Origin: Acidobacteriota bacterium
Lineage (GTDB): Bacteria > Acidobacteriota > Vicinamibacteria > Vicinamibacterales > JAFNAJ01
Assembly (NCBI GenBank): GCA_023384575.1
Contig: JAHDVP010000047.1
Coordinates: 1-38,262 of the forward strand
DNA: 38,262 bases
Direction of reading: 5' to 3'
In this document: piece after piece, positions 13,394 through 32,159 of the stretch
Layout: each line of letters opens with the position of its first letter
Position numbering within the stretch: position 1 is the first letter of the stretch
The notes under the pieces: generated by a model
Told to the model about the DNA's origin: nothing
The model's database searches: none
Seen by the model: the letters and a program-made list of their open reading frames with translations, nothing else
Program-made: the position numbers and the translations under genes

Positions 13394-13803
13394 CGCTCTT
13401 CACCCTCACAATCGAGGGCCTCCAGAATCGGGCACTCGCCTACAGACCCGCGCCCGGAGCACTCGCGGATGAGCTTTGTGAGAGCTATCCGCATTGCCTG
13501 GAGGGTCCTCATCTTGTCGTCGATGTCCCGCACCTTGGTCGCGGCGCGCTCGCGAACATCGGCGCACGGCGTCAGGGGCGCCGCGCGCAGCGAGAGCAGT
13601 TCCTTGATCTCCTCCAGCGTGAATCCGAGCTCCTGCGCGCGCCTGATGAAGCGCACCCGGAGCACGGCATCCGCCGGGTACGCCCGGTAGTTCGCCTCCG
13701 TGCGGAGGGGCCTGGGCAAGAGCCCTCGGCGCTCGTAGTAATGGATCGTCTGTACGTTCACGCATGCCTGCGTGGCGACTGCACCGACTCTCAGAACTGT
13801 CAT
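13390..13803 (-). CDS. merR: MerR, mercury-responsive regulator
   Basis: 137-aa MerR-family activator. N-terminal winged helix (VNVQTIHYYERRGLL, then NYRAYPADAVLRVRFI), a long dimerisation helix, and the three metal-binding cysteines C80, C115 and C124. The spacings 35 and 9 equal those of Tn501 MerR (C82, C117, C126), which identifies Hg(II) sensing rather than Cu or Zn; ECPILEAL after the third Cys also fits. It leads its own operon instead of being divergent from it, and its stop overlaps the start of the MerC-like gene. Confidence 0.92.
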   Translation of the reverse strand: MTVLRVGAVATQACVNVQTIHYYERRGLLPRPLRTEANYRAYPADAVLRVRFIRRAQELGFTLEEIKELLSLRAAPLTPCADVRERAATKVRDIDDKMRTLQAMRIALTKLIRECSGRGSVGECPILEALDCEGEER

Positions 13804-15127: not shown

Positions 15128-15463
15128 CTACTTCTTCTTCGGTGCCGGACCGAGCTCGATCGTTACCGCCCGCATCCGGTCTTCGTCCTGTACCTTCTCG
15201 GTGACGGCTGTCACGACTACCCTCATGCCCTTCTGAATGTCTTCAACGGAGACCGGCCTCTTGTTTCGCAGCACCTTCGTACTGGCCGTGATGTACACGG
15301 TCGCTTCGTCGCCCTTCCTGTCCTCGAACATCACGTGATCCGAGGCGACCATGGTGACCGTCCCCATCATCTTGTGTTCATGGCCGGAATGGGCAGACGC
15401 CCGATCGCCACCGACGGCCAAGAGCGACAGCGCGAAGAGCACGACACTGATTGGTCGAGTCAT
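15128..15463 (-). CDS. Exported small OB-like protein (DUF5666-like)
   Basis: 111-aa exported protein. Signal peptide at about residues 1-24; the mature start is HSGHEHKMMGTV, a His/Met cluster that could bind copper, followed by a small beta-rich domain (TVTMVASDHVMFEDRKGDEATVY; then GMRVVVTAV) like DUF5666/OB folds, and a Lys-rich end. AAGGAG stands seven bases before the ATG at 15463. It follows the cytochrome gene by 132 bp on the same strand. Role probably periplasmic metal handling; inferred. Confidence 0.78.
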   Translation of the reverse strand: MTRPISVVLFALSLLAVGGDRASAHSGHEHKMMGTVTMVASDHVMFEDRKGDEATVYITASTKVLRNKRPVSVEDIQKGMRVVVTAVTEKVQDEDRMRAVTIELGPAPKKK

Positions 15464-15595
15464 GTGGATTCTCCTTGAACCTTGGGGAGCGGCACTTCCC
15501 GGCAACTGCCGGTACGGGGCCTGTCGCTCCCTCTGTGACACGCCCCCTCGAGATTGGCGAACAGCCCGCTCGGACTCGTGGAATCCGGTGTCGCG

Positions 15596-16225
15596 TCAGT
15601 CGCGACGTCCGGTGCCTCGGTTGGACGCCGGAGGGTCGGTCGGCAGCTCCTCTCCCTCCAGGAACCGCCGCAGGTCCTCCTCTTCACGGAGCTGTCTGGT
15701 GCTCCTCGGATTGAGATCGTCCATCCGCGCAAGGTCCTCTGGGGTCAGCGAGGCCAGGCGACGAATGAAGTGCACCAGACCCCAACTGGCCTGCGCGCCT
15801 TCCGGCGTCCCCGTGCTCCATGCCGGCATTCCCGTAAGGCGAATGCCGTGCTCGATGATCGAGAACAGCTCGCCGTCGGTGAGCTCCTGTGTGCGCACCC
15901 CACGCATGTCGGGCGCGCGGGGATAGAGGTTTCGACCTATCGGCGTGTTACCACTCCCGTTGTTGGCGTGGCAGACGGCACAATGGTCGGCGAAATGCTC
16001 GAGCGCGTCGTTCGCCACCGCCTCGGTGAACGGCACCGGATTGACCTGATTGCGAACCGTGGCCGGCGTGGCCAACCGGCGCATCCCCATGGCGATGCCT
16101 TGCTCGACTGCGCTGGGCTGGGCGCGCGCGCTGAGTCCGCGCCGGACGATCGAATAGCCCGCGATGGCTCCGATCAGCGCACCCAGCCCGACGAGGATCA
16201 GCAGCGCGCGAAGTACCGCCTTCAT
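15596..16225 (-). CDS. Membrane-anchored c-type cytochrome
   Basis: 209 aa with an N-terminal membrane anchor (about residues 4-26) and one class I cytochrome c domain: heme-binding CAVCH (C82, C85, H86) and a probable axial methionine in GIRLTGMPAW (M133). The C-terminus after 165 is charged and probably disordered. Start is the ATG at 16225; an in-frame start at 16291 is outside the hydrophobic anchor. It faces the periplasm. Together with the neighbouring Met-rich and beta-barrel genes it might take electrons in a metal or thiosulfate reaction; no partner oxidase is seen, so its reaction is unknown. Confidence 0.88.
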   Translation of the reverse strand: MKAVLRALLILVGLGALIGAIAGYSIVRRGLSARAQPSAVEQGIAMGMRRLATPATVRNQVNPVPFTEAVANDALEHFADHCAVCHANNGSGNTPIGRNLYPRAPDMRGVRTQELTDGELFSIIEHGIRLTGMPAWSTGTPEGAQASWGLVHFIRRLASLTPEDLARMDDLNPRSTRQLREEEDLRRFLEGEELPTDPPASNRGTGRRD

Positions 16226-16408
16226 GGGAGACCGCCGATCATTGTCCCAGCCAAGCGTGACCGGGCGGCGGTAACCGCGTGCCGAGGACACGCCGAATCA
16301 GCAGCGCGAGGTCGCCGACGTGGCCGGTCGCACCGAAGGCTCTCGTACGGATACTCCATGGCAACGTCGGCTGATCCGGAAGCGGATCGGGAGGAGGACG
16401 TGAGGAGC

Positions 16409-16470: not shown

Positions 16471-17364
16471 TCACCGTTCGAACAGCCGCCGACTGACACC
16501 GACGGTGAGAGCCACGCGGGGGCTGGCCTCCGTGAGGCCGACCGTGGGGAGGATGGTGAGCGCCAGGCGGTCGCCCGCCCGGACGCCGAGGCCGACGCCA
16601 ACCTCGAGCGGCGCGCCGAACTCACGCAGAATGGCGGTGTTCCCGCTTGCCGATGCCAGCAGCGATGTCCGCCCTGACAGGCGCCGGCCGCCGCCGACAC
16701 TCCAGAGGACTGCGTTCCGCAGGTCGACGCCCGGCGGCTCGCCGACGAACAAATACCCACCCTCGACGTACGTCCATCCACGTGCGAACCGCTTGCGGAC
16801 CGCGGCCAGGGCTCCGACGTCCACCTTGCCGGTGCCGAGACCGCTCATCCGGCTGGCCGTCGGCAGCTTGACGCGCGTGCCCACCACGACCTGAACACCG
16901 CTCAGCACGCTATCCACGACCCGATAGCCGACGGCGCCGACGAGGTCGCCCATCCCTGACTGATGCGCCGGCAGCGACGAGCCGAGGCGACTCGAGCCCG
17001 GCGCGGCAGTTCCGCCCGACATCATGCCCGCGCCACGCGTCATCGACATGCCGACCCCGGGGGCGCCCGTCAGGCTGCCTTGCATCGGGACGAATCCCCC
17101 CTGAGAGAGCGCGACGGTGCCGTCCGTGATACTCACGAAGGGGAAGGCGACCGAGGCTTCCACGCGTCCAACGTCGACGCGCACACTCGTCGGGACATAG
17201 ATGACCGTGGTCGTCTGATCGCTGCCGAACGCACCAGACAGGGCGCGGACGTTGACACCCGCCGTCACGGTGAGCGGTTGTGCGACAGCGCTGGCACCCG
17301 TCAGCGCCACGACGGCAGCGACCACGGCGCACCGCCTTCGCGCGGCGACGCTACTTCGGCTCAT
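16471..17364 (-). CDS. Outer-membrane beta-barrel protein
   Basis: 297 aa with a signal peptide (about 1-28, ending SAVAQ). The rest is made of short amphipathic beta strands with Gly/Ser turns (VGVGLGVRAGDRLALTILPTVGL; VALTVGVSRRLFER), the last strand ending in an Arg/Phe terminus as in outer-membrane barrels. A Gly/Met-rich loop (GVGMSMTRGAGMMSGG, about 105-120) could bind copper. The ATG at 17364 overlaps the end of the Met-rich gene by 14 bases. I take it for a porin-like or transporter-like barrel of unknown substrate. Confidence 0.78.
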   Translation of the reverse strand: MSRSSVAARRRCAVVAAVVALTGASAVAQPLTVTAGVNVRALSGAFGSDQTTTVIYVPTSVRVDVGRVEASVAFPFVSITDGTVALSQGGFVPMQGSLTGAPGVGMSMTRGAGMMSGGTAAPGSSRLGSSLPAHQSGMGDLVGAVGYRVVDSVLSGVQVVVGTRVKLPTASRMSGLGTGKVDVGALAAVRKRFARGWTYVEGGYLFVGEPPGVDLRNAVLWSVGGGRRLSGRTSLLASASGNTAILREFGAPLEVGVGLGVRAGDRLALTILPTVGLTEASPRVALTVGVSRRLFER

Positions 17365-17818
17365 GATGCGGGCCCTTCATGGCCTGGTTCATGTGCTTCG
17401 TCATCGACTCGAAGGCCGAGGCCATCTTCTCGAGCTCGCGGCACGCTGCGTTGAATGCCTTCGTCGCGCTGCCGTCGTGCGTGAACTGTGGGTCCTTCAT
17501 CATGCCGGTCAGGTGGCCATGCAGGCCTCGCATCTGCTCGAGCATGCCCCGCATACCATCGATCATCTGGTCGTGCCGACCGCCTTCCATCGACATGGCC
17601 GATAGGTCGCGCATCATCGATTCGGCCCGCAGCATGGACGAATCGACGTTCCGCATCATCTGCTCGCCGGCCATCATCTGGCCGTGTCCCTGAGCGACGG
17701 GGGCGCCGTGCGTGCCGCGCATCGCGCCGTGCCCAGTGTGCTGGGCAACGGCAGATCCGGCGAGCAGGGCCAGGGAAAGAAGGCTGAGTGAGATACGGAC
17801 GAGGTAAAAGTGTGCCAT
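17351..17818 (-). CDS. Met/His-rich exported protein
   Basis: 155 aa. Signal peptide at about 1-26 (SLALLAGSAVAQ). The mature chain of about 129 residues has roughly 20 methionines and many histidines (HTGHGAM, GQMMAGEQMM, GGRHDQM, HGHLTGMM), in predicted helices: MRGMLEQMRGLHGHL and MASAFESMTKHMNQAM. That composition fits periplasmic Cu(I)/Ag(I) binding. It is analogous in size and setting to ZraP/CpxP-type metal-stress chaperones, but I see no LTxxQ motif. The ATG at 17818 is chosen because the signal peptide begins there; in-frame starts further upstream lack a purpose. A sigma-54-like promoter precedes it. Confidence 0.82.
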   Translation of the reverse strand: MAHFYLVRISLSLLSLALLAGSAVAQHTGHGAMRGTHGAPVAQGHGQMMAGEQMMRNVDSSMLRAESMMRDLSAMSMEGGRHDQMIDGMRGMLEQMRGLHGHLTGMMKDPQFTHDGSATKAFNAACRELEKMASAFESMTKHMNQAMKGPHHEPK

Positions 17819-17890
17819 TGGCTGGTCTCCGGGGGCCAATCTGTGTCGGGTGTCCTGCGCAGCCGCCGTTCTGGCGACACCTCTCGTGCA

Positions 17891-17905
17891 GCAACCCTGG
17901 TACCA
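17891..17905 (-). promoter_or_regulatory. Sigma-54 promoter candidate before the Met-rich gene
   Basis: On the minus strand TGGTAC-N5-TTGC, one base off TGGCAC-N5-TTGC, with GG (17903-17904) and GC (17891-17892) exactly ten bases apart. Predicted start of transcription about 17879, 60 bp before the ATG at 17818. Confidence 0.62.
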
Positions 17906-17974: not shown

Positions 17975-17999
17975 TTTCAGACACCCCGGCTGCCTGAAA
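17975..17999. promoter_or_regulatory. Candidate NtrC-type enhancer between divergent genes
   Basis: Perfect inverted repeat TTTCAG (17975-17980), 13-base gap, CTGAAA (17994-17999). The centre is about 108 bp upstream of the sigma-54 start predicted for the Met-rich gene and about 172 bp upstream of the one predicted at 18159, both usual enhancer distances. A similar repeat lies before the Cus-type operon. Confidence 0.5.
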
Positions 18000-18132
18000 T
18001 GAGACACGCCATCTCAACGGCGACATCGACGAACGGCGACAGGGTGCCGGGGTTCCGGCGCCCGTCCCTCAGGGCACAGGGCCCGCCGCGAGTGAACTCC
18101 GATCGGTCTGGCAATTCGGCGAGGGCGGATGC

Positions 18133-18147
18133 TGGCACGAGGCGTGC
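18133..18147 (+). promoter_or_regulatory. Weaker sigma-54 promoter candidate before the Cys-rich gene
   Basis: TGGCAC-N5-GTGC: the -24 half is perfect and GG/GC are ten bases apart, but the -12 half has G instead of T at its first base. Predicted start of transcription about 18159, which is only two to five bases before the GTG codons of the next gene. That would make the mRNA nearly leaderless, a reason for caution. Confidence 0.4.
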
Positions 18148-18718: not shown

Positions 18719-19267
18719 ATGAGCACGCATCGTCACTCGCCCGCACGACCGGACCGGCGGGCGCAGTTTGCGACCCGGCCCGCAGCCCGCGCCGTTCGAA
18801 CGCCGCTCGTCCTGATGATCGGCGCGGCGCTCCTGTTCGTCGGAGCCTTCGTACTGGTCGTCGGAACCGGGCGCGACAGCGGCACGGCAGACGGCCAATC
18901 CTTTGCCGACGCTGGGCTCGCTGGTGCGGACGTCGTGCTGCCCGCATCGACCTTCGACGACGGACTGGCCCGGTTCTATCGGCATCTGACGGCCGCGGGC
19001 CGCGAGGTCCGCTTCTTCGTGATGAAGAGCTCGGACGGCGTCATCCGCGCCGCGTTCGATGCCTGCGACGTCTGCTATCGGGAACGCAAGGGTTACCGGC
19101 AGGCGGGAGACGTGATGGTGTGCAACAACTGCGAGCAGGTCTTCCCCTCGACCCAGATCAACGTGCTGCAGGGCGGCTGCAACCCGGCGCCGATCGAGCG
19201 GTCCGTCTCGGGCGACCAGGTGGTGCTCTCCGCCGCGGCGCTCTCACGGGGCGTTGCGTACTTCTGA
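18719..19267 (+). CDS. DUF2318 Fe-S/metal-binding membrane protein
   Basis: 182 aa. One membrane helix at about 30-50, then the DUF2318 domain on the outer side: RFFVMKSSDGVIRAAFDACDVCYRE (C116, C119), GYRQAGDVMVCNNCEQVF (C135, C138) and a later C154. The four-cysteine set is complete. GAGAGGAG stands just before the ATG at 18719. DUF2318 proteins occur beside ABC permease/ATPase pairs in iron-uptake loci with FTR1 and P19 (Campylobacter Cj1658-Cj1665, E. coli FetMP-type). The same permease/ATPase pair follows here, but FTR1 and P19 are not in this window. Confidence 0.88.
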   Translation: MSTHRHSPARPDRRAQFATRPAARAVRTPLVLMIGAALLFVGAFVLVVGTGRDSGTADGQSFADAGLAGADVVLPASTFDDGLARFYRHLTAAGREVRFFVMKSSDGVIRAAFDACDVCYRERKGYRQAGDVMVCNNCEQVFPSTQINVLQGGCNPAPIERSVSGDQVVLSAAALSRGVAYF

Positions 19268-19298
19268 CGCCATCGCGCCACGAGACGAGGAGAGGTTC

Positions 19299-20456
19299 AT
19301 GCAGCTCCGGAACATCGCCTTAGGCAGCCTCAAGCGGCGGCGATCGCGCGCGGCATTCGTGGTGGCCGCCCTCGCGCTCGGTGTCGGGACGCTCGTCGCG
19401 CTCGTGTCGCTCACGCGCGCCATGCAAGGCGAGATTGGGGACGAACTCGATCGATTCGGCGCCAACATCGTCGTCACGCCCAAGGCGACCACCCTCGACC
19501 TGGCGTACGGCCACGTGGGCATCGGCGGCCTCACTGTCGATGCAGAGGAGCTGACCGAGCAGGACGCCTCGGCAATCCGCACGATTCCCCACCGCCGCAA
19601 CATCAGTGCCGTGGCACCGAAGCTGATCGGCACCACGGAGCTACACGGCGAGGCCGTCCTCCTCGTCGGCGTCAATCTCCATCAGGAGCGCGGGGTCAAG
19701 AGCTGGTGGCGGTTCGACGGACGCTATCCGGAGAGCCCCGGCGATGTCCTGCTGGGCGCCGAGGTGGCGCAGCGTCTCCACACGGCGCCGGACGCTCGTG
19801 TCCGGCTCGACGGTCGAGATCTCTCGGTGGCCGGCGTCCTGCACCCGACGGGAGCCATCGACGACCGCGCCGTGTTCGCCGACCTCGGGCTCGTGCAGCA
19901 GATCTTCGGCCGGCCTGGAGCGCTCACCGTCATCGAGGTGAGCGCACTCTGTCGCGGCTGTCCCATCGAAGACATCGTCGCCCAGATTGGCCAGGTCCTG
20001 CCGCATGCCCGCGTTGCGCCGATTCGCCAAGCCGTGGCGGCTCGCGAGCAGGCCGTGGGACAGATGACGCGCTTCGCCTACCTCGTGTCGGCCATCGTTC
20101 TGCTGGCCGCTGGGTTGGTGATCATGACCACGCTGCTCGCCTCGGTCAGCGAACGAACTCAGGAGATCGGTATCCTCCGCGCGGTGGGCTTCCGCCAGAG
20201 TCATGTCGTGCGGGTGATTCTGATCGAAGTGCTGATCGTGAGTGCACTCGGAGGCCTAGCCGGCTGGCTGGCAGGAGCGGCGGGGGCCCACTTCTTCGGC
20301 CGCACGCTCTGGCAGTTGTCAGCCCCAGTGCCCGTGGACGGCTGGCTCGCGGTATGGGCTGTGGCTCTTTCCGTCGTCCTGGGCCTGGCGAGCGGCGCGT
20401 ATCCGGCCCTGCGGGCTTCGCGCCTCGATCCAGCCCAGGCGTTCCGCCAGGTGTAA
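19299..20456 (+). CDS. MacB/FtsX-type ABC transporter permease
   Basis: 385 aa. First membrane helix at about 20-40, a large periplasmic MacB-like domain (about 45-255; contains GRYPESPGDVLLGAEVAQRL), then three helices in the FtsX region (AYLVSAIVLLAAGLVIMTTLLASVSERTQEIGILRAVGF). Ends with SRLDPAQAFRQV, as usual for this family. GAGGAGAGG precedes the ATG at 19299. Type VII ABC permeases move mechanical force to periplasmic partners rather than carry small solutes; the partner here is probably the DUF2318 protein. Confidence 0.92.
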   Translation: MQLRNIALGSLKRRRSRAAFVVAALALGVGTLVALVSLTRAMQGEIGDELDRFGANIVVTPKATTLDLAYGHVGIGGLTVDAEELTEQDASAIRTIPHRRNISAVAPKLIGTTELHGEAVLLVGVNLHQERGVKSWWRFDGRYPESPGDVLLGAEVAQRLHTAPDARVRLDGRDLSVAGVLHPTGAIDDRAVFADLGLVQQIFGRPGALTVIEVSALCRGCPIEDIVAQIGQVLPHARVAPIRQAVAAREQAVGQMTRFAYLVSAIVLLAAGLVIMTTLLASVSERTQEIGILRAVGFRQSHVVRVILIEVLIVSALGGLAGWLAGAAGAHFFGRTLWQLSAPVPVDGWLAVWAVALSVVLGLASGAYPALRASRLDPAQAFRQV

Positions 20457-20510
20457 CGCCGGGACGAACGCGCGTCTCGAAAGTGCCTGACAGGAAGGGA
20501 TTCGGCAGCG

Positions 20511-21248
20511 ATGGCTCTGATCGAACTGCGACAAGTTGAGAAGATCTACAACGGTCACCAGTCGGCCGTCACCGCGCTGAGTGACATCGACATGACGGTC
20601 CACGAGCGTGAGTTCGTCAGCCTCATGGGGCCGAGCGGCTCGGGCAAGAGCACGCTGCTCGGGATCCTTGGCGCGATGAGCCCGCCGTCGGCCGGCAAAG
20701 CGGTCGTCGACGGCATCGACGTGTATGCGCTCGGCCACGAGCGTCGCGCCGATTTCCGCCGGGAGTATCTGGGCTTCGTGTTTCAGCAGTTGTTTCTCGT
20801 ACCCTACCTGACCGCGGCAGAGAACGTCATGCTGCCGCTCGCCGCGGCCGGCCTCCCGAACCGACGCCAGCGCGAGATGGTCGTCCAGGCGCTCGAGCGT
20901 GTCGGACTGGCCGACAAGGCGAGTCGGCTGCCGCTCGCCCTGTCCGGTGGTGAACAGCAGCGCGTCGCCATCGCGCGCGCCATCGTCAACACCCCTCCCA
21001 TCGTGCTCGCCGACGAGCCCACGGGCTGTCTGGACAGCCAGAACGGCCGCGCGATCATGGAGCTGTTCCTCGAACTGCGGGCGTCAGGACTGACGGTCTT
21101 CATGGTGACACACGACCAGGAGATCGCGGGATTCGCCGACCGCGTCGTGCGACTCCACGATGGGCGCCTTGACGCCAGCGACCAGGAGATCGTGCAGTCG
21201 GATCGCGCGCCCGCGGGAGCGCGGGCGGCGGTCGGACGGCGGGCCTGA
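20511..21248 (+). CDS. MacB/LolD-type ABC transporter ATP-binding protein
   Basis: 245-aa ATPase. Walker A GPSGSGKST (40-48), FQQLFLVPYLTAAENV, signature LSGGEQQRVAIARA (144-157), Walker B IVLADEPTGCLDS and H-loop VTHDQE are all present, typical of the MacB/LolD/FtsE group. It pairs with the FtsX-type permease 54 bp upstream. The Ala/Arg-rich last 25 residues are extra. Its stop is only 13 bp from the stop of the convergent response-regulator gene. Confidence 0.94.
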   Translation: MALIELRQVEKIYNGHQSAVTALSDIDMTVHEREFVSLMGPSGSGKSTLLGILGAMSPPSAGKAVVDGIDVYALGHERRADFRREYLGFVFQQLFLVPYLTAAENVMLPLAAAGLPNRRQREMVVQALERVGLADKASRLPLALSGGEQQRVAIARAIVNTPPIVLADEPTGCLDSQNGRAIMELFLELRASGLTVFMVTHDQEIAGFADRVVRLHDGRLDASDQEIVQSDRAPAGARAAVGRRA

Positions 21249-21260
21249 ACGAGGCAACGC

Positions 21261-22676
21261 TCAGTCGGCGGGCTCGCCTTTCTGAACGTCGCCGACGGCC
21301 GTACGTCTGTCGCGCTCAATCCCGAACTTCTGCATTCGGTACAAGAGGGTGCTCCGCGTGATGTCGAGATACGCCGCAGCCCGCGTCTGGTTCCAGTTGT
21401 GTTTGTCGAGCGCCGCGACGATCAGGTCCCGCTCGAGCTCCTCGAGCGAGATTCCCTCATCCGGCAGTTCCACGCGCAGCCGGCCGATTCGTCCGTCGTG
21501 CGCACGCAGGCGATCGGGCAGGTCGTCGAGGCCGAGCCGGCCATCCTCGTCGAGCACGAGCGCGCGCTCGATGACGTTCTCCAACTCGCGGATGTTTCCA
21601 GGCCAGTTGTAGAGATTGAAGGCCGAGTACACCTCACGCGCCACGAGCGGCACCGGACGCCCGAGCCGGACACTGTGCTTCGTGAGGAAGTGATGAACGA
21701 GCAGCGGCACGTCATCGGCGCGCTCGCGAAGCGGGGGCAGTCGGATCGGGACGACGGCAAGCCGGTAGTAGAGGTCGTCGCGAAACGTGGCGTCGCTGAC
21801 CATCTTGTCGAGATTCCGGTTGGTGGCGGCGATGACCCGTACGTCGACCGCGAGCGGTCGGGCCTCGCCGACCTTGTCGATCTCGCGACTCTGCAGCACT
21901 CTCAGCAGCTTCACCTGCAAGGCCTGCGGCAGCTCGCCCACTTCGTCGAGGAAGATCGTCCCGCGGTTGGCGGCCTCGAACTTGCCCTGTTTGTCGGCGA
22001 TGGCCCCGGTGAACGACCCGCGTCGATGCCCGAACAGCTCCGATTCGAGCAACTGCTCCGGGATGGCGCCGCAGTTGATCGTGACAAACGGCCCGCGCGA
22101 CCGGCTGCTGTGCGCGTGGATGGCCTTGGCCAGGAGCTCCTTGCCCGTTCCGCTCTCGCCCTCGAGCAGAACGGTCGCCTCCGTGGCGGCGACTCGGCCC
22201 GCCATGTCGGTCACGTCGCGCATGGCGCGCGAGCCCGCGATCATGTGCTCGAATGACAGACGTTCCCTGATGACCTCGCGTAGGTGCCGGTTTTCGGCGC
22301 GCAAGGCCGCGAGGTCGAGTGCCTTGGCAACGGTCGCCTTGACCGCTTCACGTGCGAACGGCTTCGTGAGGTAGTCGAACGCGCCGAGCTTCATGGCATC
22401 GACGGCGGAATCGATGGTGCCGTGTGCGGTCAGCAGGATCACCGGCAGCTCCGGATGCATCGCCTTGATGCGGGTCAGCAGCTCGATACCATCCATTCCC
22501 GGCATCCGCACGTCGCTAAGCACGAGGTCGACGCCGGACGACTGCAGGCACTCGAGCCCCGCCTGACCATCAACGGCGGCCAGCACATGGTAGCCCTCCT
22601 CCTGCAGGGTGAACTCGACGACGCGCCGCAGGCTCTCGTCGTCGTCGATGACCAGAATGGTGCGTGAGTCAGGCAT
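21261..22676 (-). CDS. NtrC-family sigma-54 dependent response regulator
   Basis: 471 aa in three domains. Receiver (about 5-120): acidic pocket DDD (11-13), phosphoacceptor D55 in VLSDVRMPG, T83 and K105. AAA+ domain (about 142-380): Walker A GESGTGKE (173-180), sigma-54 contact loop GSFTGA (220-225, Ser for the usual Ala), Walker B GTIFLDEVGE. C-terminal Fis-type helix-turn-helix (about 430-465: NQTRAAAYLDITRSTLLYRMQKFGI). Start is the ATG at 22676, overlapping the end of the kinase gene by eight bases; the longer frame back to 22925 is antisense-free extension without homology. It should activate sigma-54 promoters, good candidates for which lie nearby. Relatives: ZraR/HydG. Confidence 0.95.
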   Translation of the reverse strand: MPDSRTILVIDDDESLRRVVEFTLQEEGYHVLAAVDGQAGLECLQSSGVDLVLSDVRMPGMDGIELLTRIKAMHPELPVILLTAHGTIDSAVDAMKLGAFDYLTKPFAREAVKATVAKALDLAALRAENRHLREVIRERLSFEHMIAGSRAMRDVTDMAGRVAATEATVLLEGESGTGKELLAKAIHAHSSRSRGPFVTINCGAIPEQLLESELFGHRRGSFTGAIADKQGKFEAANRGTIFLDEVGELPQALQVKLLRVLQSREIDKVGEARPLAVDVRVIAATNRNLDKMVSDATFRDDLYYRLAVVPIRLPPLRERADDVPLLVHHFLTKHSVRLGRPVPLVAREVYSAFNLYNWPGNIRELENVIERALVLDEDGRLGLDDLPDRLRAHDGRIGRLRVELPDEGISLEELERDLIVAALDKHNWNQTRAAAYLDITRSTLLYRMQKFGIERDRRTAVGDVQKGEPAD

Positions 22677-23856
22677 GCGCGGCGCTCGCGGGTCCGTAGG
22701 AGGATTCTGCATGAAGCGTACCCAGGGGCAGGTGTACGCGAATCGACGTGCCGGTCGGCACGCGGGGCTCCACCTGGATGGTCCCACCATGGGCACCGAC
22801 GATGCGATGCGAGACGGCGAGCCCCAGCCCGGTGCCACGATGCTTGCTGGTGAAGAACGGCTCGAAGATACGGGACACGTGTTCCACCGGGATGCCGCAG
22901 CCTTCGTCGTCGACGGACAGGACAACGAAGGCTCCGGCCGCGAAGTGGCGGATCAGGACACGTCCGCCATCCGGACTCGCCTGGATCGCGTTCAGGACCA
23001 CGTTGAACACGACCTGCGTGATCTGCTCGGTGTCGATCTCCAACGACACGGCCGGGGCCGAGCCGTCCACGACGAGCTGCACATGCCGTCGTTCGGCTTC
23101 TGTCGCGAGCAGGGCTGTCACGCGGTCGACCACGGGCTGGAGGGCGCTTGCCTGAAGCCGCGGCGGACGCGGTCGCGCGTACGCCAGGAACTCCTCGAGC
23201 AGCCGGCCGAGACGTTCGAGCTCGGTCGTGGCCACACGAGCGAACTCGGCCTCCGGCGTGGCTGGCTGAAGACGTGACGTCACGATGTCCAGCGCCCCTC
23301 GCACGCCCGCGAGGGGATTGCGCAGCTCGTGCGCGAGGCCAGCGGCAATTTCGCCGAGCGCCGACAGACGTTCGGCCCGGCGCAGGTGCTCCTGCGACTC
23401 CTGCAGGTCGCGATGCCGGGCGTCCGAGGTGGTCGCGGCATCGCGGTATCGTGCCGTCAGGCGCTTCTGGCTCGTCATCAGGAGCCCGACGAGTCCCCCG
23501 AGCAGGTGGAACGCCACGACCTGAGCGTACTGACTGGCGGTATAGGCCTCGTTGTCGGCCCACGCCGTTTGGATGTGCGGAATGTACGCCAGCGAGGCGG
23601 CCAGGGCAGTCAGCAGGCCTCCCGATGCGCCGTACCAGTAAGCGGCCGCGACAATCGGCGCATAGTAGAGATACTCATAGAGCGCATGCAGCAACACATG
23701 GCGCGGGCTGGTGAGCACGTGCAGCAGCGACACGGCCGCGACGGCGGCGAGCAGCGCGGCCACTCGCTTCGCGTGGTCTGAGATGACCTGGGGCCGATCC
23801 CGCTCAGACCCGGCACGGTCCGGCTGGCGGGGGCTGCTCGGATCCGCTCCGTCCAT
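22669..23856 (-). CDS. Membrane sensor histidine kinase (partner of the NtrC regulator)
   Basis: 395 aa. Four hydrophobic helices at about 33-130 form the sensor (LYEYLYYAPIVAAAYW, GLLTALAASLAYIPHI), with no large periplasmic loop. Then HisKA with H176 in AHELRNPLAG, and an intact HATPase domain: N-box FNVVLNAIQASPDG (N285, N289), G1 DDEGCGIP, FEPFFTSK and GTGLGLAVSH. The ATG at 23856 has GAGGAG six bases upstream. It is the first gene of the two-component operon and divergent from the CusCBA-type operon. The signal is probably copper or silver, by context only. Confidence 0.94.
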   Translation of the reverse strand: MDGADPSSPRQPDRAGSERDRPQVISDHAKRVAALLAAVAAVSLLHVLTSPRHVLLHALYEYLYYAPIVAAAYWYGASGGLLTALAASLAYIPHIQTAWADNEAYTASQYAQVVAFHLLGGLVGLLMTSQKRLTARYRDAATTSDARHRDLQESQEHLRRAERLSALGEIAAGLAHELRNPLAGVRGALDIVTSRLQPATPEAEFARVATTELERLGRLLEEFLAYARPRPPRLQASALQPVVDRVTALLATEAERRHVQLVVDGSAPAVSLEIDTEQITQVVFNVVLNAIQASPDGGRVLIRHFAAGAFVVLSVDDEGCGIPVEHVSRIFEPFFTSKHRGTGLGLAVSHRIVGAHGGTIQVEPRVPTGTSIRVHLPLGTLHAESSYGPASAAHA

Positions 23857-23883
23857 TTGTTCTCCTCGTCGGCCCTCCCCGAA

Positions 23884-23913
23884 GTCATCGAGAGAGGCGT
23901 CTCGACCGATGAC
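23884..23913. promoter_or_regulatory. Inverted repeat in the kinase/Cus intergenic region
   Basis: Perfect 7-bp arms GTCATCG (23884-23890) and CGATGAC (23907-23913) around a second small dyad (CGAGA...TCTCG). Lies about 180 bp upstream of the predicted sigma-54 start and 30-60 bp before the kinase ATG, so it could serve either direction. Confidence 0.4.
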
Positions 23914-23928
23914 CTCCGATCTGTCCGC

Positions 23929-23958
23929 TTTCAGTCAGCGCCCGCGTTCAGCTGAACG
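23929..23958. promoter_or_regulatory. Candidate NtrC-type enhancer before the Cus operon
   Basis: TTTCAG (23929-23934) and CTGAA (23952-23956) with, inside, a perfect 14-bp palindrome CGTTCAGCTGAACG (23945-23958). The centre is about 135 bp upstream of the predicted sigma-54 start, a usual distance for NtrC-type activators. The TTTCAG...CTGAA arrangement recurs at 17975-17999. Confidence 0.58.
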
Positions 23959-24053
23959 AAATGCCGCACCGTGAGCCGCACGGGCCGTCGACCCTCGACT
24001 CATTCTGCACGCGCCGACGCGACTTCAACGTCACAGGGCCCGAACGTCGTGGG

Positions 24054-24068
24054 TGGCACCGGCTTTGC
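24054..24068 (+). promoter_or_regulatory. Sigma-54 promoter of the Cus-type operon
   Basis: TGGCAC-CGGCT-TTGC, identical to the consensus TGGCAC-N5-TTGC, GG (24055-24056) and GC (24067-24068) ten bases apart. Predicted start of transcription about 24080, giving a 120-base leader before the ATG at 24199. An NtrC-type activator gene is encoded divergently next door. Confidence 0.85.
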
Positions 24069-24198
24069 CTTTGTCACGGGTGTCGTTCTGAAGGCGAGCC
24101 CCACGACGCGATCGATTTCTCCCGTTGGGTGCCGCGCGGCGCGCAGGCTTCGGTCGCCTCGAGCTGCCGATGGCGCCAGTCACCGTTCCAGGTCGCTT

Positions 24199-25521
24199 AT
24201 GAAGCTTCTGCCTGCCCTGTCGAGTGTGATCGTCCTCGTCAGTTTACCCCTGTCGGCGAGAGCGCAGCCACTCGAGGCGCTCTCGGTGCCTGAGGGCGTC
24301 GCGCAGCCCAGCCCGATATCGCCGATGCCAGCAGAGGCGACGCTTGCCAGCCTGGTCGCGGAGCTCGAGCGCAACAACCCGGAACTCGAGGCGGCCCGCC
24401 GGGACGTCGACATGCGCCTCGCCCGCGTCGCGCCGGCGGGCGCGCTGCCCGACCCAACGCTTTCTGCGGGCTCGATGGCCGGCTTCAGCCGACCCCCGTT
24501 CTTTCCTTCATCGGCGACGCCCGACGGGTCCCGGCAGGTCGGGATCACCCAGGAGTTCCCGTTCCCCGGCAAGCGCGCGCTCCGAACCCAGGTGGCCTCG
24601 GCCGAAGTCGAGGCCCAGCGCTGGGAGTACGAGACGCGACGCGTGTTTCTCGTCGCTCAGCTGAAGGAGACCTACCTCGAGTACACCCTCGCCACGCGCA
24701 GTCTCGAACTCGTGGTCGAGAACCTCACCCTCCTCGAGCAGCTCCGGCAGATCGCGGAGACGCAGTTCCGCGTGGGCAGGGGCAACCAGCAGGATGTCGT
24801 GAAGGCGCAGCTCGAGACGTCGTTGCTCATCGAGCGCCGCGAGCTGCTGGCCCGGCAGCGAGACACGCTGGTGGCCCGTCTCAACGCCCTGCTGTATCGC
24901 CCCGCGAACGGTGCCGTGCGCGCCGACCTGGCGTTTACGGTTGAGGCACTACCCGGGGATGTGGTCTCGCTCCAGGCCCTGGCCGAGGCACGTTACCCCG
25001 CGCTCCACCGCGACCGTCGGCTGGTCGAGCGCGGCCAGCACGCCCTGGCCTTCGCGAGGAAGGACGTGCTGCCCGACTTCGCGGTGAACGTCAACGTCCA
25101 GCGGGTGGTCGGCGGGATGCCGTGGATGTACGGCGTCGACTTCATGGTGAAAGTGCCGCTCTACTGGCAGCGGAAGCAGCGGCCGATGATCGCCGAGGCT
25201 GCCGCGGCCCTCGAGAGCACTCGGAAGATGCGCGAGAACACCCAGGCGATGGCCATCGCCGAGGTCGCCGAAGAGTATCTGGCCGCGGTCACCACGCGGC
25301 ATCTGGTCGCGCTCTACAGCGAGAGCGTCCTGCCGCAGGCTCGTCTGGCGCTCCAGTCGTCGCTCGCCGGCTACCAGGTCGGGTCGGTGGACTTCCTGAC
25401 GCTCATCACGAACTTCAGCTCGATCCTGAACGCCGAGATTGCGCATCTGGAGCAACAGACCCGCTATCACCAGGCACTCGCGCGGCTCGAGCCGCTCGTG
25501 GGCGCCGAATTCGTGAAGTGA
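24199..25521 (+). CDS. CusC/CzcC-type outer-membrane efflux protein
   Basis: 440 aa with a signal peptide (about 1-23, ending SARAQ). It shows the outer-membrane-factor duplication: LASLVAELERNNPELEAARRDV opens the first half, and VVSLQALAEARYPALHRDRRLVERG the second. Long coiled-coil helices carry QFRVGRGNQQDVVKAQ and SLAGYQVGSVDFLTLI. PFPGKRALR is typical of the metal-RND subgroup. The start is the ATG at 24199, where the signal peptide begins. It forms the outer duct of the tripartite pump with the next two genes. Confidence 0.93.
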   Translation: MKLLPALSSVIVLVSLPLSARAQPLEALSVPEGVAQPSPISPMPAEATLASLVAELERNNPELEAARRDVDMRLARVAPAGALPDPTLSAGSMAGFSRPPFFPSSATPDGSRQVGITQEFPFPGKRALRTQVASAEVEAQRWEYETRRVFLVAQLKETYLEYTLATRSLELVVENLTLLEQLRQIAETQFRVGRGNQQDVVKAQLETSLLIERRELLARQRDTLVARLNALLYRPANGAVRADLAFTVEALPGDVVSLQALAEARYPALHRDRRLVERGQHALAFARKDVLPDFAVNVNVQRVVGGMPWMYGVDFMVKVPLYWQRKQRPMIAEAAAALESTRKMRENTQAMAIAEVAEEYLAAVTTRHLVALYSESVLPQARLALQSSLAGYQVGSVDFLTLITNFSSILNAEIAHLEQQTRYHQALARLEPLVGAEFVK

Positions 25522-25536
25522 AGGGGACTGGGAATC

Positions 25537-27015
25537 ATGCAGGAGCATTCGACGCCATCCGGGCCGCCGACGCCGGCCGAATCGGCTCGCCGTGAGTGGA
25601 CGCTCGCCGCGGCCCGCCGTCGCGGAGTAGCTGGTTATCTCGTGGGGACGCTTCTCGGGCTCGGCCTGGGTGTCGGCGCGACGCTCTCCATAGTCGAGTA
25701 CACGCGCCATGCCCCGGCATCTCCGTCAGCTGGTTCCCTCGACGAACACGCCGGCCACGGCGGCGGGAGCGCCGAGATGGACCACCCTGCCGGCGAGTCG
25801 CCAGTCGAAGCGGCCGAGAAGATGGTGTACATCCCGCCGGCCCGCCAGCAGCTGATCGGAGTGCGCACGGAGGAAGTCGTGCACAGGGCGCTCGACACGA
25901 CGGTCAGGACCGTGGGCGTCCTGGCGTACGACGAGACGCGCGTCGCGCAGGTTCACACGAAGATCGCCGGCTGGGTCGACCGGCTGTTCGTCGACTTCGT
26001 CGGCAAGCCCGTCAGGCGAGGGCAGCCGCTCTTCACCATCTACAGTCCAGAGCTCGTCTCCACGCAGAGGGAGTACTTGCTCGCGCGGCAGGCGCACGCG
26101 CGGCTCTCGGAGAGCCGGTTCGAGGAGACCCGAGATGGCGCGCTGGGCCTGCTGACGGCGAGCCGCGACCGGCTCAGGCTATGGGACGTCTCCGAGGCCC
26201 AGATCGAGGAGCTCGAACGCACCGGCACGCCACGCAGGACCCTGACGCTCCACTCGCCGTTCACGGGCGTGGTTCTGGAACGCAACGCGTTCGCCGGCCA
26301 ATACGTCACGCCCGAGGTGACGACGTTCAGGATTGCCGACCTCTCACGGATCTGGGCCATCGGGCAGGTCTTCGAGTACGAGAGCGAGCACGTGCGGGTC
26401 GGCCAGCGGGTGACGGTCGAGTTCCCCTATCAGCAGACCACGCGAACGCTCACGGGCACGATCACGTTCATCTACCCGGATGTGGATCCGATGACCCGAC
26501 GCCTGCGCGTGCGTGCCGAATTCGCCAACCCTGGTCTCGAGCTGAAGCCCGATGCCTTCGTGACCCTGGTCATCACGGGAGGCGAGACACACGCACTCGC
26601 CATCCCGGCCGAGGCGGTCATCGACACCGGCGAGACGCGCTACGCCATCCTGGCGCACGCCGACGGCTACTTCGAGCCACGCGAGATCGAGACGGGCGCG
26701 CCGCTCGGCGCCTACTACCCAGTGGTCGCGGGTCTCGAGCACGGCGACCGGGTCGTGACGTCGGCACAGTTCCTGATCGACTCCGAGACCAACCTGCAGG
26801 CCGCGATGCAGTCGATGGCCGGACACGGGCACGGGAGCATGGACACCACTGGAGGCGGCCACGACGGGATGGCCACGCCGGCACCGAAGCCACCGGCGCC
26901 TGTACCAGCCGCGCCCGCTGGTTCGGGAAGTCACGAGGGACACGGTCAGGCGTCGCCAGCGCCGAAGCCGACGCCATCAGGCAAGGCGTCGGCGCACCGT
27001 GACCACAGGCCCTGA
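25537..27015 (+). CDS. cusB: CusB-type membrane fusion protein
   Basis: 492-aa periplasmic adaptor. Membrane anchor at about 32-54, a short His/Asp-rich stretch at 69-83 (DEHAGHGGG), then lipoyl and barrel domains (VHTKIAGWVDRLFVDFVGKPVRRGQPL; LHSPFTGVVLERNAFAGQYV; DVDPMTRRLRVRAEF). The last 66 residues are a His/Met/Pro-rich tail (GHGHGSM, GGGHDGM, SHEGHGQ), probably extra copper ligands that E. coli CusB lacks. Coupled to the preceding gene by 15 bp. In CusB, adaptor methionines hand Cu(I)/Ag(I) to CusA. Confidence 0.92.
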   Translation: MQEHSTPSGPPTPAESARREWTLAAARRRGVAGYLVGTLLGLGLGVGATLSIVEYTRHAPASPSAGSLDEHAGHGGGSAEMDHPAGESPVEAAEKMVYIPPARQQLIGVRTEEVVHRALDTTVRTVGVLAYDETRVAQVHTKIAGWVDRLFVDFVGKPVRRGQPLFTIYSPELVSTQREYLLARQAHARLSESRFEETRDGALGLLTASRDRLRLWDVSEAQIEELERTGTPRRTLTLHSPFTGVVLERNAFAGQYVTPEVTTFRIADLSRIWAIGQVFEYESEHVRVGQRVTVEFPYQQTTRTLTGTITFIYPDVDPMTRRLRVRAEFANPGLELKPDAFVTLVITGGETHALAIPAEAVIDTGETRYAILAHADGYFEPREIETGAPLGAYYPVVAGLEHGDRVVTSAQFLIDSETNLQAAMQSMAGHGHGSMDTTGGGHDGMATPAPKPPAPVPAAPAGSGSHEGHGQASPAPKPTPSGKASAHRDHRP

Positions 27016-27033: not shown

Positions 27034-30000
27034 GTGATCGAGAGACTCATCGCCTTCAGCGCCCGGAACGCGTTCGTGGTGCTCCTGCTCGTCGCCGGCA
27101 TTGTCGGTGGTGGGGTCTGGGCCATCAAGAACACGCCCATCGACGCCATTCCCGACCTGTCTGACGTGCAGGTGATCGTCACGACGAACTGGGAGGGCCG
27201 CAGCCCCACCCTCGTCGAGGACCAGGTCACCTACCCGATCGTCACGGCTCTCATCTCGGCACCGCACGTCAAGGTCGTCCGCGGCTTCTCCTACTTCGAC
27301 GTCTCGTTCGTCTACGTCATCTTCGAGGACGGAACCGATCTCTACTGGGCGCGCACGCGGGTGCTGGAGTACCTGAACGGCCTTCAGGGCCGCCTTCCCG
27401 CTGGCGCCCAACCCGTGCTCGGCCCGGACGCGACCGGCGTTGGCTGGGGGTTCCAGTATGCGCTCGTGGACCGCAGCGGCCAGCACGACCTCGCCCGGTT
27501 GCGGAGTCTGAACGACTGGCACGTCCAGTACCTCCTGCGCAGTGTCCCTGGCGTGGCCGAGGTGGCGCCGGTCGGCGGCTACGTGAAGCAGTACCAGGTC
27601 GCCATCGACCCGAACGCCCTCCTGGCGTACGGGGTGTCGATCGACCAGGTGGCGATGGCCGTGCGGGCGAGCAACAACGACGTCGGTGGGCGCGTGGTGG
27701 AGTGGACCGGCCGCGAGTACATGGTGCGCGGGCGCGGCTACATCCAGTCGGTCGCCGACATCGAGCGCATCGGCGTCGGGGCGCGGCAGGACGGTACCCC
27801 GATTCTCGTGAGGGACGTGGGCCGCGTCGGCGTGGGGCCGGAGATGCGGCGCGGAGTCGCCGATCTGAACGGCGAGGGCGACGTTGCCGCGGGTATCGTC
27901 GTCATCCGCTCGGGCGTCGACACCTATGGCGTCATTCAAGACATCAAAGCTGCCGTTGCCGAGAAGGTCCAGCCGTCGCTTCCCGAAGGGGTCGAGTTCG
28001 TCACGACCTATGACCGGTCGGACCTGATCGAGCGGTCGATTGCCACGCTCGTCGAGAAGCTGATCGAAGAGGTGCTCATCGTCTCGCTCGTGTGCGCGAT
28101 CTTCCTGTGGCACTTCCGGAGCGCACTCGTCGCCATCCTGACGCTGCCGCTGGCCATCCTGCTCTCGCTCATGGCGATGCAGTACATCGGGCTCGGATCG
28201 AACATCATGAGCCTGGGCGGGATTGCGATCGCCATCGGCGCGATGGTCGACGCGGCGATCATCATGGTCGAGAACGCCCACAAACACCTCGAGCACGACA
28301 CGGGGGGCAGGCCACGCCGGGAGGTGCTGATCGAGGCGGCCCAGGAAGTCGGGCCGTCGCTCTTCTTCGCGCTCCTCATCATCACCGTCTCGTTCCTGCC
28401 CATCTTCACCCTCGAGGCGCAGGAGGGCCGCCTCTTCCGGCCGCTCGCCTTCACCAAGACGTTCGCGATGGGGTTTGCGGCGATCACCTCCGTGCTCGTC
28501 GTCCCATACCTGATGGTGCTCTTCATCAGGGGGCGCATCGCCCCGGAGGAGAAGAACCCGATCAACCGGTTCCTGATGCGGATCTACCATCCGGCGGTGA
28601 GGCTCGTCCTGCGGCACCGGGCGCTCACCCTCCTGGCGGCGTTCCTGCTCATGCTGAGCACGGTGCCCGTGTACATGAAGCTCGGCAGCGAGTTCATGCC
28701 ACCGCTGAACGAGGGCTCGCTGCTCTACATGCCGATCACGCTGCCGGGGGCCTCCGTGCAGACCGCCCAGCAGATCCTGGCGACTCAGGACAAGCTGATC
28801 CGGCGGGTGCCCGAGGTGGAGTCCGTGTTCGGCAAGGCCGGCCGCGCCCTCTCGGCGACCGACCCGGCGCCGCTCGAGATGATCGAGACCGTCATCAACC
28901 TCAAGCCCGAGTCGGAATGGCGGCCGGGCATGACGACCGAGCGGATCGTGGCCGAACTGGACGGGCTCGTTCGCCTTCCCGGCGTGGCCAACGCCTGGAC
29001 GATGCCGATCAAGGCGCGGACCGACATGCTCTCGACGGGAATTCGTACGCCGGTTGGCGTCAAAGTCTTCGGGCCCTCGCTCGACGGGATCAACGAGATC
29101 GCCGCCGAGGTCGAGAGCGCGCTGCGCATGGTGCAGGGGACCCGCAACGTCTTCGCCGAACGCGTGACTGGCGGCTATTACGTGGACTTCACCGTAAAGC
29201 GCGAGGAGATCGCTCGCTACGGCCTGACCATCCAGGACGTCGAGATGGTCATCGAGTCGGCCATCGGCGGGGCCAACGTCACGACGACCGTCGAAGGCCG
29301 CGAACGTTATCCTGTCAACATCCGCTACCAGCGGGCCTATCGCGCCGACGTGAACGCACTGAGGCGCGCGCTCATCTCGACACCTTCGGGCTCACAGATT
29401 CCCATCGAGCAGGTAGCCGACATCTCGCTGACGACGGGTCCCACGGTCATCCGCACGGAGCAGGCCCAGTTGCTCGGGTACGTCTATGTCGACGTCGCCG
29501 ACCGTGACATCGGCGGATACGTCGAAGATGCCAAGGCTGTCGTCGGCGAACTGGTGTCGCTGCCAGAAGGCTACTACCTCGAGTGGAGCGGGCAGTACGA
29601 ATACATGCTGCGCGCCGAACAGCGGCTGAAGGTGGTCATCCCCGTCACCCTGCTGATTGTCATCGCCCTCCTGTACTTCAGCACGCGTCATGTCGTGAAG
29701 GTGGGCATCGTGCTGCTGGCGGTGCCATTCTCGCTCATTGGGGCGTTCTGGCTTCTGTACCTTCTCGACTACAACATGAGCGTGGCCGTCTGGGTAGGGA
29801 TCATCGCCTTGGCTGGCGTCGACGCCGAGACGGGAACGGTGATGCTCCTCTATCTCGACCGTGCGTACGAGAAGTTCAGACGTCAGGGCCGCATGCGGAG
29901 CCTTGCTGACCTCCAGGAGGCGGTTGAAGAGGGTGCCGTCGGTCGCGTGCGGCCGAAGATGATGACGGTGCTGACCATTCTGGTGGGCCTGCTGCCCATC

Positions 30001-30186
30001 ATGTGGAGTCAAGGAACGGGCGCCGACGTGATGAAGCGCATCGCGGCACCCATGGTCGGCGGCGTGGTCACGTCGTTCGCCCTCGAGCTGCTGGTCTACC
30101 CGGTGATCTTCACGATCTGGAAATGGCACAGCGAGGTGAAGGCGGGAAAGGCGCGTCCACGAGATGAAGGAGCGGTAACGACATGA
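27034..30186 (+). CDS. cusA: CusA-type Cu(I)/Ag(I) RND efflux pump
   Basis: 1050-aa inner-membrane RND pump, the proton-driven core of the tripartite exporter (E. coli CusA: 1047). Twelve membrane helices in the usual 1+5, 1+5 layout. The three methionines that bind Cu(I)/Ag(I) in CusA are all kept, in LLYMPITLPG (M566), APLEMIETVI (M616) and DMLSTGI (M665), with the same spacings of 50 and 49. The proton-relay residue D406 (GAMVDAAII) and the acidic GVDAETGTVM in the second half are present. Start is GTG at 27034. Specificity for monovalent copper or silver is therefore well supported, more than for Co/Zn/Cd. Confidence 0.96.
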   Translation: MIERLIAFSARNAFVVLLLVAGIVGGGVWAIKNTPIDAIPDLSDVQVIVTTNWEGRSPTLVEDQVTYPIVTALISAPHVKVVRGFSYFDVSFVYVIFEDGTDLYWARTRVLEYLNGLQGRLPAGAQPVLGPDATGVGWGFQYALVDRSGQHDLARLRSLNDWHVQYLLRSVPGVAEVAPVGGYVKQYQVAIDPNALLAYGVSIDQVAMAVRASNNDVGGRVVEWTGREYMVRGRGYIQSVADIERIGVGARQDGTPILVRDVGRVGVGPEMRRGVADLNGEGDVAAGIVVIRSGVDTYGVIQDIKAAVAEKVQPSLPEGVEFVTTYDRSDLIERSIATLVEKLIEEVLIVSLVCAIFLWHFRSALVAILTLPLAILLSLMAMQYIGLGSNIMSLGGIAIAIGAMVDAAIIMVENAHKHLEHDTGGRPRREVLIEAAQEVGPSLFFALLIITVSFLPIFTLEAQEGRLFRPLAFTKTFAMGFAAITSVLVVPYLMVLFIRGRIAPEEKNPINRFLMRIYHPAVRLVLRHRALTLLAAFLLMLSTVPVYMKLGSEFMPPLNEGSLLYMPITLPGASVQTAQQILATQDKLIRRVPEVESVFGKAGRALSATDPAPLEMIETVINLKPESEWRPGMTTERIVAELDGLVRLPGVANAWTMPIKARTDMLSTGIRTPVGVKVFGPSLDGINEIAAEVESALRMVQGTRNVFAERVTGGYYVDFTVKREEIARYGLTIQDVEMVIESAIGGANVTTTVEGRERYPVNIRYQRAYRADVNALRRALISTPSGSQIPIEQVADISLTTGPTVIRTEQAQLLGYVYVDVADRDIGGYVEDAKAVVGELVSLPEGYYLEWSGQYEYMLRAEQRLKVVIPVTLLIVIALLYFSTRHVVKVGIVLLAVPFSLIGAFWLLYLLDYNMSVAVWVGIIALAGVDAETGTVMLLYLDRAYEKFRRQGRMRSLADLQEAVEEGAVGRVRPKMMTVLTILVGLLPIMWSQGTGADVMKRIAAPMVGGVVTSFALELLVYPVIFTIWKWHSEVKAGKARPRDEGAVTT

Positions 30187-30887
30187 GGAGAGGGCACATC
30201 GCGAGTCGTGGCGCGGCGACGGTCGTCGGCATCGTGCTGACGGCGGGGGTCGCGATGGCGGGGGATGCCCCGCCCTTCGAGCTGGCGGCCAAGCGCGACC
30301 GGATGTTCGGCGCCACGTCGGGGACGCTGACCTTCGAGACGGACCACGTCGCGTTCACGTCGAGCGACGGGCGCGAGCAACGGTCTTGGCGCTATGAGGA
30401 TCTGCAACAGATCCAGGTTCGGGCGCCCCGACGAATCCACCTGCTGACCTACGAGGACCAGGGGCGGCTCAGGTTCGGGGCTGACCGCGCCTATGAGTTC
30501 GCCCTGCAGGCTGGCGACGTGCCCTCTGAGCTCCTGACATTCCTGCTCCACCGCATCGAGCGACCCCTCCTGCTCGCGGTTCTCCCGCAGGCGTGCTGCG
30601 AGCCGCTCTTCGAAGTAGCTGTGAAGCACGAGCGACAGGGGAAGGGCAGCGAGGGTGTGCTGGCCATCCACCACGGCGCCCTGGTTTACGATACGCCCAG
30701 TGAGGGTCGTGCGAGGTTCTGGCGATTCGGCGACCTCGAGAGCGTGTTGCGACTGGATCGGCACCGCCTGCAGGTGACCGCTCCGGAGGGAGGCGCCCTG
30801 AGACCCTTCGTGTTCCAGTTGAAGGCCGAGCTGCCCGGTGGTTTCTACGATACGCTCTGGGGCGAGATCAACGGACGAACGTGGTGA
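30183..30887 (+). CDS. Exported protein with two repeated PH-like domains
   Basis: 234 aa with a signal peptide (about 1-27, ending AMA). The mature part is an internal duplication: residues about 47-125 and 157-230 share G-x-L...AF or AL, then an Arg-x-x-W-R-[YF]-x-D-L core (W69-L74 and W180-L185), a basic strand and F-x-L-x-A/[KQ]. The pattern resembles bacterial PH or GRAM-like beta domains, but I cannot name the family. A CC pair lies in the linker (138-139). The ATG overlaps the cusA stop (ATGA), so it is made with the pump. Role unknown; a periplasmic partner of the pump is plausible. Confidence 0.8.
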   Translation: MRRGHIASRGAATVVGIVLTAGVAMAGDAPPFELAAKRDRMFGATSGTLTFETDHVAFTSSDGREQRSWRYEDLQQIQVRAPRRIHLLTYEDQGRLRFGADRAYEFALQAGDVPSELLTFLLHRIERPLLLAVLPQACCEPLFEVAVKHERQGKGSEGVLAIHHGALVYDTPSEGRARFWRFGDLESVLRLDRHRLQVTAPEGGALRPFVFQLKAELPGGFYDTLWGEINGRTW

Positions 30888-30903: not shown

Positions 30904-32070
<1,167 letters not shown>

Positions 32071-32159
32071 GGTCCACGCCACGTGACGACGCCGACGTTG
32101 CCTCGCCGGACGCGCAGGCGAACGAATCGCTGCGAGTCGGGATGCGCCGCGAGGAACCC

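Follow-up and report, generated by a model that had tools for sequence, protein, structure and literature searches.

Control of the textbook Cus system rests on sigma-70 and an OmpR-type regulator, which in E. coli is CusR. The classical metal-linked sigma-54 pair is ZraSR, in which ZraS has a periplasmic sensor and whose targets are zraP and its own operon. ZraSR responds to metal (PMC12316311). The sensor of CusS is described as periplasmic (PMC10100754, PMC7763554). The CorSR copper two-component system of Myxococcus xanthus works through a regulator of the sigma-54 type, and four putative sigma-54 promoters have been described for it (PMC3707914). We found no sigma-54-controlled cusCBA in the published literature searched, which comprised open-licence text. 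Here we describe a 38,262-nt stretch of DNA from an Acidobacteriota genome (the window) in which, as judged from sequence, copper/silver pump genes are very probably switched on by an enhancer-driven sigma-54 promoter and a neighboring sensor-regulator pair.

The original prediction placed a sigma-54 promoter before a six-gene plus-strand run, and both the coordinates and the domain and family matches bear out this arrangement. All six genes lie on the plus strand, with gaps of at most 71 bp or with overlaps. The first encodes a TolC/CusC-like outer-membrane factor (OMF) with a signal peptide (24199-25521, +; PF02321) and is followed by genes for a CusB-like membrane fusion protein (25537-27015, +; PF16576, with a match to the CusB subfamily model) and a CusA-type RND pump (27034-30186, +; TIGR00914 above cut-off). 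The alignment of the pump with E. coli CusA covers the full length, and the pump retains a CusA-like transmembrane motif and the methionine triad, that is, the three E. coli methionines that we take to be the copper/silver site residues. Next comes a secreted protein (30183-30887, +) with no Pfam match, for which a confident structural model predicts two tandem PH-like domains; the Foldseek matches of the model are double-PH proteins such as Spt16, Pob3, and Rtt106. Genes of this periplasmic tandem-PH family often lie 3' of CusA in Acidobacteriota. A kinase-like protein, discussed below, and a CopB-type copper P-type ATPase (32142-34262, +; TIGR01511 above cut-off, with a His-rich N terminus and a CPH motif in its sequence) complete the run.

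The predicted promoter of this operon, the -24/-12 element TGGCACCGGCTTTGC (24054-24068, +), sits 130 bp 5' of the OMF ATG (24199). It carries GG at -24 and GC at -12 with the correct spacing, and the transcription start is predicted at about 24080. The element had been said to match TGGCAC-N5-TTGC at every position; there is indeed no mismatch, and it is the sole exact match on either strand of the window. Scored with an approximate sigma-54 matrix, it ranks first in the window at 15.4 (runners-up 15.0 and 14.5), a value reached by 0 of 100 shuffles; an enhancer dyad lies 115 bp upstream. Judged by genome-wide density, about 3-4e-4 chance hits would be expected on the correct strand of the 342-bp intergenic region. 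The search for rpoN that had been proposed with the prediction returned one match to the RpoN DNA-binding domain in the genome (E 1.4e-64). Counting the motif was abandoned as stand-alone evidence: the whole 5.89-Mb genome holds 9 exact copies of TGGCAC-N5-TTGC and 13 of a reversed control, which is no enrichment, and the motif taken singly is weak evidence. A looser pattern, CTGNCNGNNTTCAGNCAG, was also set aside; its only exact match was the window site, and the remainder were scattered one-mismatch matches. A search of the intergenic DNA against plasmids gave no match. Read by themselves, the genome counts would suit a chance string upstream of an operon that uses an ordinary sigma-70-type promoter. 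We consider this very improbable, given that a scan suited to E. coli-like promoters found no sigma-70-like promoter in 23600-24400, and given the rarity, spacing, and conservation of the enhancer (UAS) described next.

We regard this predicted enhancer site as the decisive evidence for sigma-54 control; the -24/-12 motif alone proves little. The dyad CTGTCCGCTTTCAGTCAG (23921-23938), centered at about -150, follows the consensus of the relatives' loci and is the predicted upstream enhancer for the cognate activator. The consensus derived from those loci, CTGTCTGNTTTCAGACAG, has only two matches with up to three mismatches in the 5.9-Mb genome (23921-23938 and 17990-18007), a count made with the relatives' consensus after the dyad had been noticed first in the related loci L071 and L072 and then in the window, so that the search was partly guided. 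Both matches fall within the window, where shuffling predicts 0.04, and both adjoin sigma-54-like sites. A palindrome at 23947-23958, GTTCAGCTGAAC, was the first candidate for the enhancer; it was abandoned since the element conserved among relatives is the dyad at 23921. The two dyads and the sigma-54-like sites at 17890 and 18133 are additions to the original prediction.

Orthologues of the kinase encoded beside the operon were collected by a protein search over the phylum, the order, and named genomes, and the flanking DNA of the matches was compared. The closest orthologous kinases are 51-58% identical and come, among genomes with known names, from ones named as Acidobacteria, plus one record labeled Cyanobacteria. 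That record, JAIEMQ010000006.1 (L148, titled Cyanobacteria bacterium), is genome G159, which is assigned to the order of the source genome, and its label is probably wrong. Dyads together with -24/-12 elements lie 5' of cus, copB, or HK-activator operons (HK, sensor histidine kinase) in 11 relatives, and close orthologous HK-activator pairs carry a UAS/sigma-54 promoter of their own. In L071 and L072, for example, a DUF2934 gene heads the kinase-activator operon, with TGGCACAGGGCTTGC or TGGCACATTGATTGC 5' of it and a dyad of the form CTGTCTG-N4-CAGGCAG 70 bp farther upstream. The close loci, 237 kb with the window included, contain 14 copies of the dyad at up to two mismatches; scrambled dyads in the same DNA averaged 1.2 matches, with a maximum of 7, and 0 of 60 reached 14. 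The best downstream sigma-54 score averaged 12.5 over 17 UAS-associated promoters (3 in the window and 14 in the 11 relatives), compared with 3.0 for shuffles, 4.2 for the antisense strand, and 4.3 for the highest mean among 100 shuffle sets, a contrast that is partly selected and somewhat inflated since the promoters were picked after the dyads were seen. GG and GC are retained in all 17. This phylogenetic footprinting supports the prediction that the Cus-type operon is transcribed from a sigma-54 promoter and controlled by the NtrC-type activator encoded beside it. The elements, their spacing and conservation, the protein domains, and the presence of RpoN are read directly from the DNA.

No strong dyad was seen at L149 or L172, more distant relatives have a modest sigma-54 enrichment 5' of HK and OMF genes, and aligning the complete DNA of three promoter regions was not informative. 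The HK-activator pair itself adjoins Cus/CopB genes across the Acidobacteriota phylum. A protein of about 71 aa consisting only of a Fis-type HTH is encoded in L072 (8881-9093, -) after the UAS/sigma-54 promoter and ahead of the OMF gene. It also occurs at L125, L170, L172, L175, and L181, is absent from the window, and could compete for the dyad. The Fis-OMF promoters of three relatives have weak -24 elements, with scores of 7.4-8.2. Near-perfect UAS dyads also lie away from cus or HK genes (L071:3770-3787, L150:6352-6369, and L177:6260-6277), which makes a larger regulon probable in relatives.

The second dyad in the window, CTGCCTGAAATGAGACAC (17990-18007), also matches the relatives' consensus, has an extra half-site, TTTCAGACA, directly upstream, and is flanked by a divergent pair of sigma-54-like sites, which rank second and third in the window. 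One, TGGCACGAGGCGTGC (18133-18147, +), lies 125 bp away from the UAS with a score of 15.0 (reached by 1 of 100 shuffles) and faces a Cys-rich secreted ORF, followed by genes for an FtrD-like protein, an FtsX-type permease, and an ABC ATPase (18719-21248, +; PF10080, NCBIfam, and sequence), which are candidate regulon members. The other, TGGTACCAGGGTTGC (17891-17905, -), lies 84 bp away from the UAS with a score of 14.5 (reached by 0 of 100 shuffles) and faces the gene of a secreted Met/His-rich protein (17361-17819, -). This protein, another candidate member, belongs to no Pfam family and, by its composition, is likely to be a periplasmic copper binder. Further along, a minus-strand run close to the copper genes encodes a cytochrome c of the PF13442 type (15596-16291, -) and a small His-rich protein, secreted and without a Pfam match (15128-15541, -), which is possibly a periplasmic copper binder as well.

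A MerR-type regulator and an adjoining MerC-like gene (12629-13803, -) form a possible mercury resistance pair. The MerR-type gene (13390-13803) has a bearing on whether the sigma-54 promoter, even if real, might be secondary, with most of the copper induction coming from another promoter, such as one of the sigma-70 type, or through a different metal regulator. There is precedent for such layering in Myxococcus copA, which has both CorR and CorE promoters (PMC3707914). We judge it quite unlikely here: the MerR gene adjoins a MerC-like gene, not cus, and the E. coli-like scan found no second promoter element in the intergenic region.

Divergent from the copper operon, the original prediction had recognized a complete histidine kinase and a sigma-54 activator, and the expected domains were found in both. 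The activator (21261-22709, -, start codon approximate; Pfam REC, Sigma54_activat, and HTH_8) combines a receiver, an AAA+ domain with a GSFTGA loop (GAFTGA-type), and a Fis-type HTH, the features of an NtrC-type regulator. Its recognition helix, WNQTRAAAxLxITRSTLLYRM, is near-identical among close orthologues, which is what a shared dyad requires. The HK (22669-23856, -; HisKA and HATPase_c) is by sequence criteria a complete sensor kinase, with the phospho-acceptor histidine and the N, G1, and G2 boxes near-invariant in 46-67 homologues. Pfam identified neither a periplasmic sensor domain nor a HAMP domain in it; its N terminus is helical and membrane-embedded. Hydropathy indicates up to four membrane segments, and the AlphaFold helix pattern is ambiguous on topology. 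Within this membrane part H57 is invariant and H46, H94, and W99 are nearly so, which suggests that the kinase probably senses copper through the three conserved histidines. A PDB search with the sensor segment returned only low-scoring designed repeat proteins, which we took as chance matches.

The nearest solved structure to the kinase core is that of ZraS (38% identity), and this bears on the identity of the signal. The main rival to our reading is that the promoter and activator are real and the signal is not copper: another metal such as zinc, or general envelope stress as in ZraSR, would act on the kinase, and the efflux genes would be one branch of the response. ZraS acts in zinc/lead and envelope stress, and the wider kinase family also occurs near other RND pumps, which score far lower against the window CusA. 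The targets in the window are nonetheless of the copper type (the CusA methionine triad, the CopB ATPase, and the Met/His-rich protein), and we consider a different signal unlikely. We infer copper as the metal from these neighboring genes.

The kinase-like protein of the operon (about 30904-32070, +) is a paralogue of the HK that shares its sensor and phospho-acceptor histidine; in the paralogue the N and G1 ATP boxes are lost. The same losses in L128 and L170 indicate a conserved pseudokinase. Its role as a brake or a heterodimer partner is a guess.

The interpretation that we favor, and hold to be likely, is that the whole locus, with both dyads and the adjacent HK-activator pair, is a sigma-54-dependent copper/silver resistance regulon. 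For its operation we infer activator binding, dependence on sigma-54, copper as the signal, and a pseudokinase brake. Excess Cu(I)/Ag(I) would be sensed by the kinase, probably via the three histidines of its membrane segments, and the kinase would phosphorylate the adjacent NtrC-type activator. The phosphorylated activator would bind the dyad at 23921-23938 and hydrolyze ATP, and sigma-54 RNA polymerase would be opened at 24054-24068, leading to transcription of the genes from OMF to CopB. The dyad at 17990-18007 would act likewise on the gene of the Met/His-rich protein (-) and on the Cys-rich/FtrD/ABC operon (+). The pseudokinase made from the operon may then serve as a phosphatase-type or dimerizing brake. 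A broader proposal is more tentative, and we place it a shade below even: that the locus exemplifies an undescribed class of Cu/Ag two-component switch, in which a cus/copB regulon extending over part of the Acidobacteriota would be governed by a membrane sensor lined with histidines, a sigma-54 activator that recognizes CTGTCTG-N4-CAGACAG, and a damping, co-induced pseudokinase, and to which gene sets on a plasmid from another phylum would be related.

Under sigma-54, the pump genes would be kept tightly shut off as long as the activator is unphosphorylated, an arrangement that would suit a costly pump. Such control would tie the detoxification of copper to a sigma factor whose best-known roles are in nitrogen metabolism, flagella, and envelope functions. 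With the enhancer dyad as a search pattern, members of the regulon can be sought in Acidobacteriota that have not been cultured, and the three conserved histidines suggest a specific way in which a kinase that has no periplasmic domain could sense copper. Within the open-licence literature searched, the cus target, the enhancer code, the sensor class, and the pseudokinase look new.

The plasmid is pPRO1 of Pelobacter propionicus (NC_008607; L183), which, like the window, has FtrD-like (DUF2318)/FtsX/ABC genes, a related HK, a sigma-54 regulator, TolC, an adaptor, and CusA in one run. The plasmid comes from another phylum; no clear UAS or good sigma-54 site was found 5' of its TolC gene, and the literature searched yielded no study of its regulation. 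CorSR and the curA operon resemble the window in pairing an HK with a sigma-54-type regulator with the same three Pfam domains (PMC3707914), and among the genes are those for a copper P-type ATPase and a cytochrome of the PF13442 type (MXAN_3414), a type also encoded in the window. The CorSR system has copper-induced genes (PMC3707914); in the window such induction is predicted. CorS has a periplasmic sensor with HAMP (PMC3707914), in contrast to the membrane-embedded sensor with conserved histidines seen here, and CorR is described as acting on copA, a multicopper oxidase, and other genes (PMC3707914), not on CusCBA. A search of that paper's main text found no description of an enhancer dyad (PMC3707914). 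E. coli ZraSR (HydHG) resembles the window in its related kinase core, its sigma-54 partner regulator, and its tie to metal, and differs in its periplasmic sensor and in targeting zraP and its own operon, not Cus/CopB genes. E. coli CusRS-CusCFBA has in common with the window two-component control and a homologous CusCBA pump encoded next door; the window differs in using an AAA+ sigma-54 activator in place of an OmpR-family regulator and in encoding an extra pseudokinase. The original claim of a different regulatory design thus needs dividing: as a principle, sigma-54 control of copper genes is not new, since CorSR was already published (PMC3707914), and relative to E. coli the claim stands.
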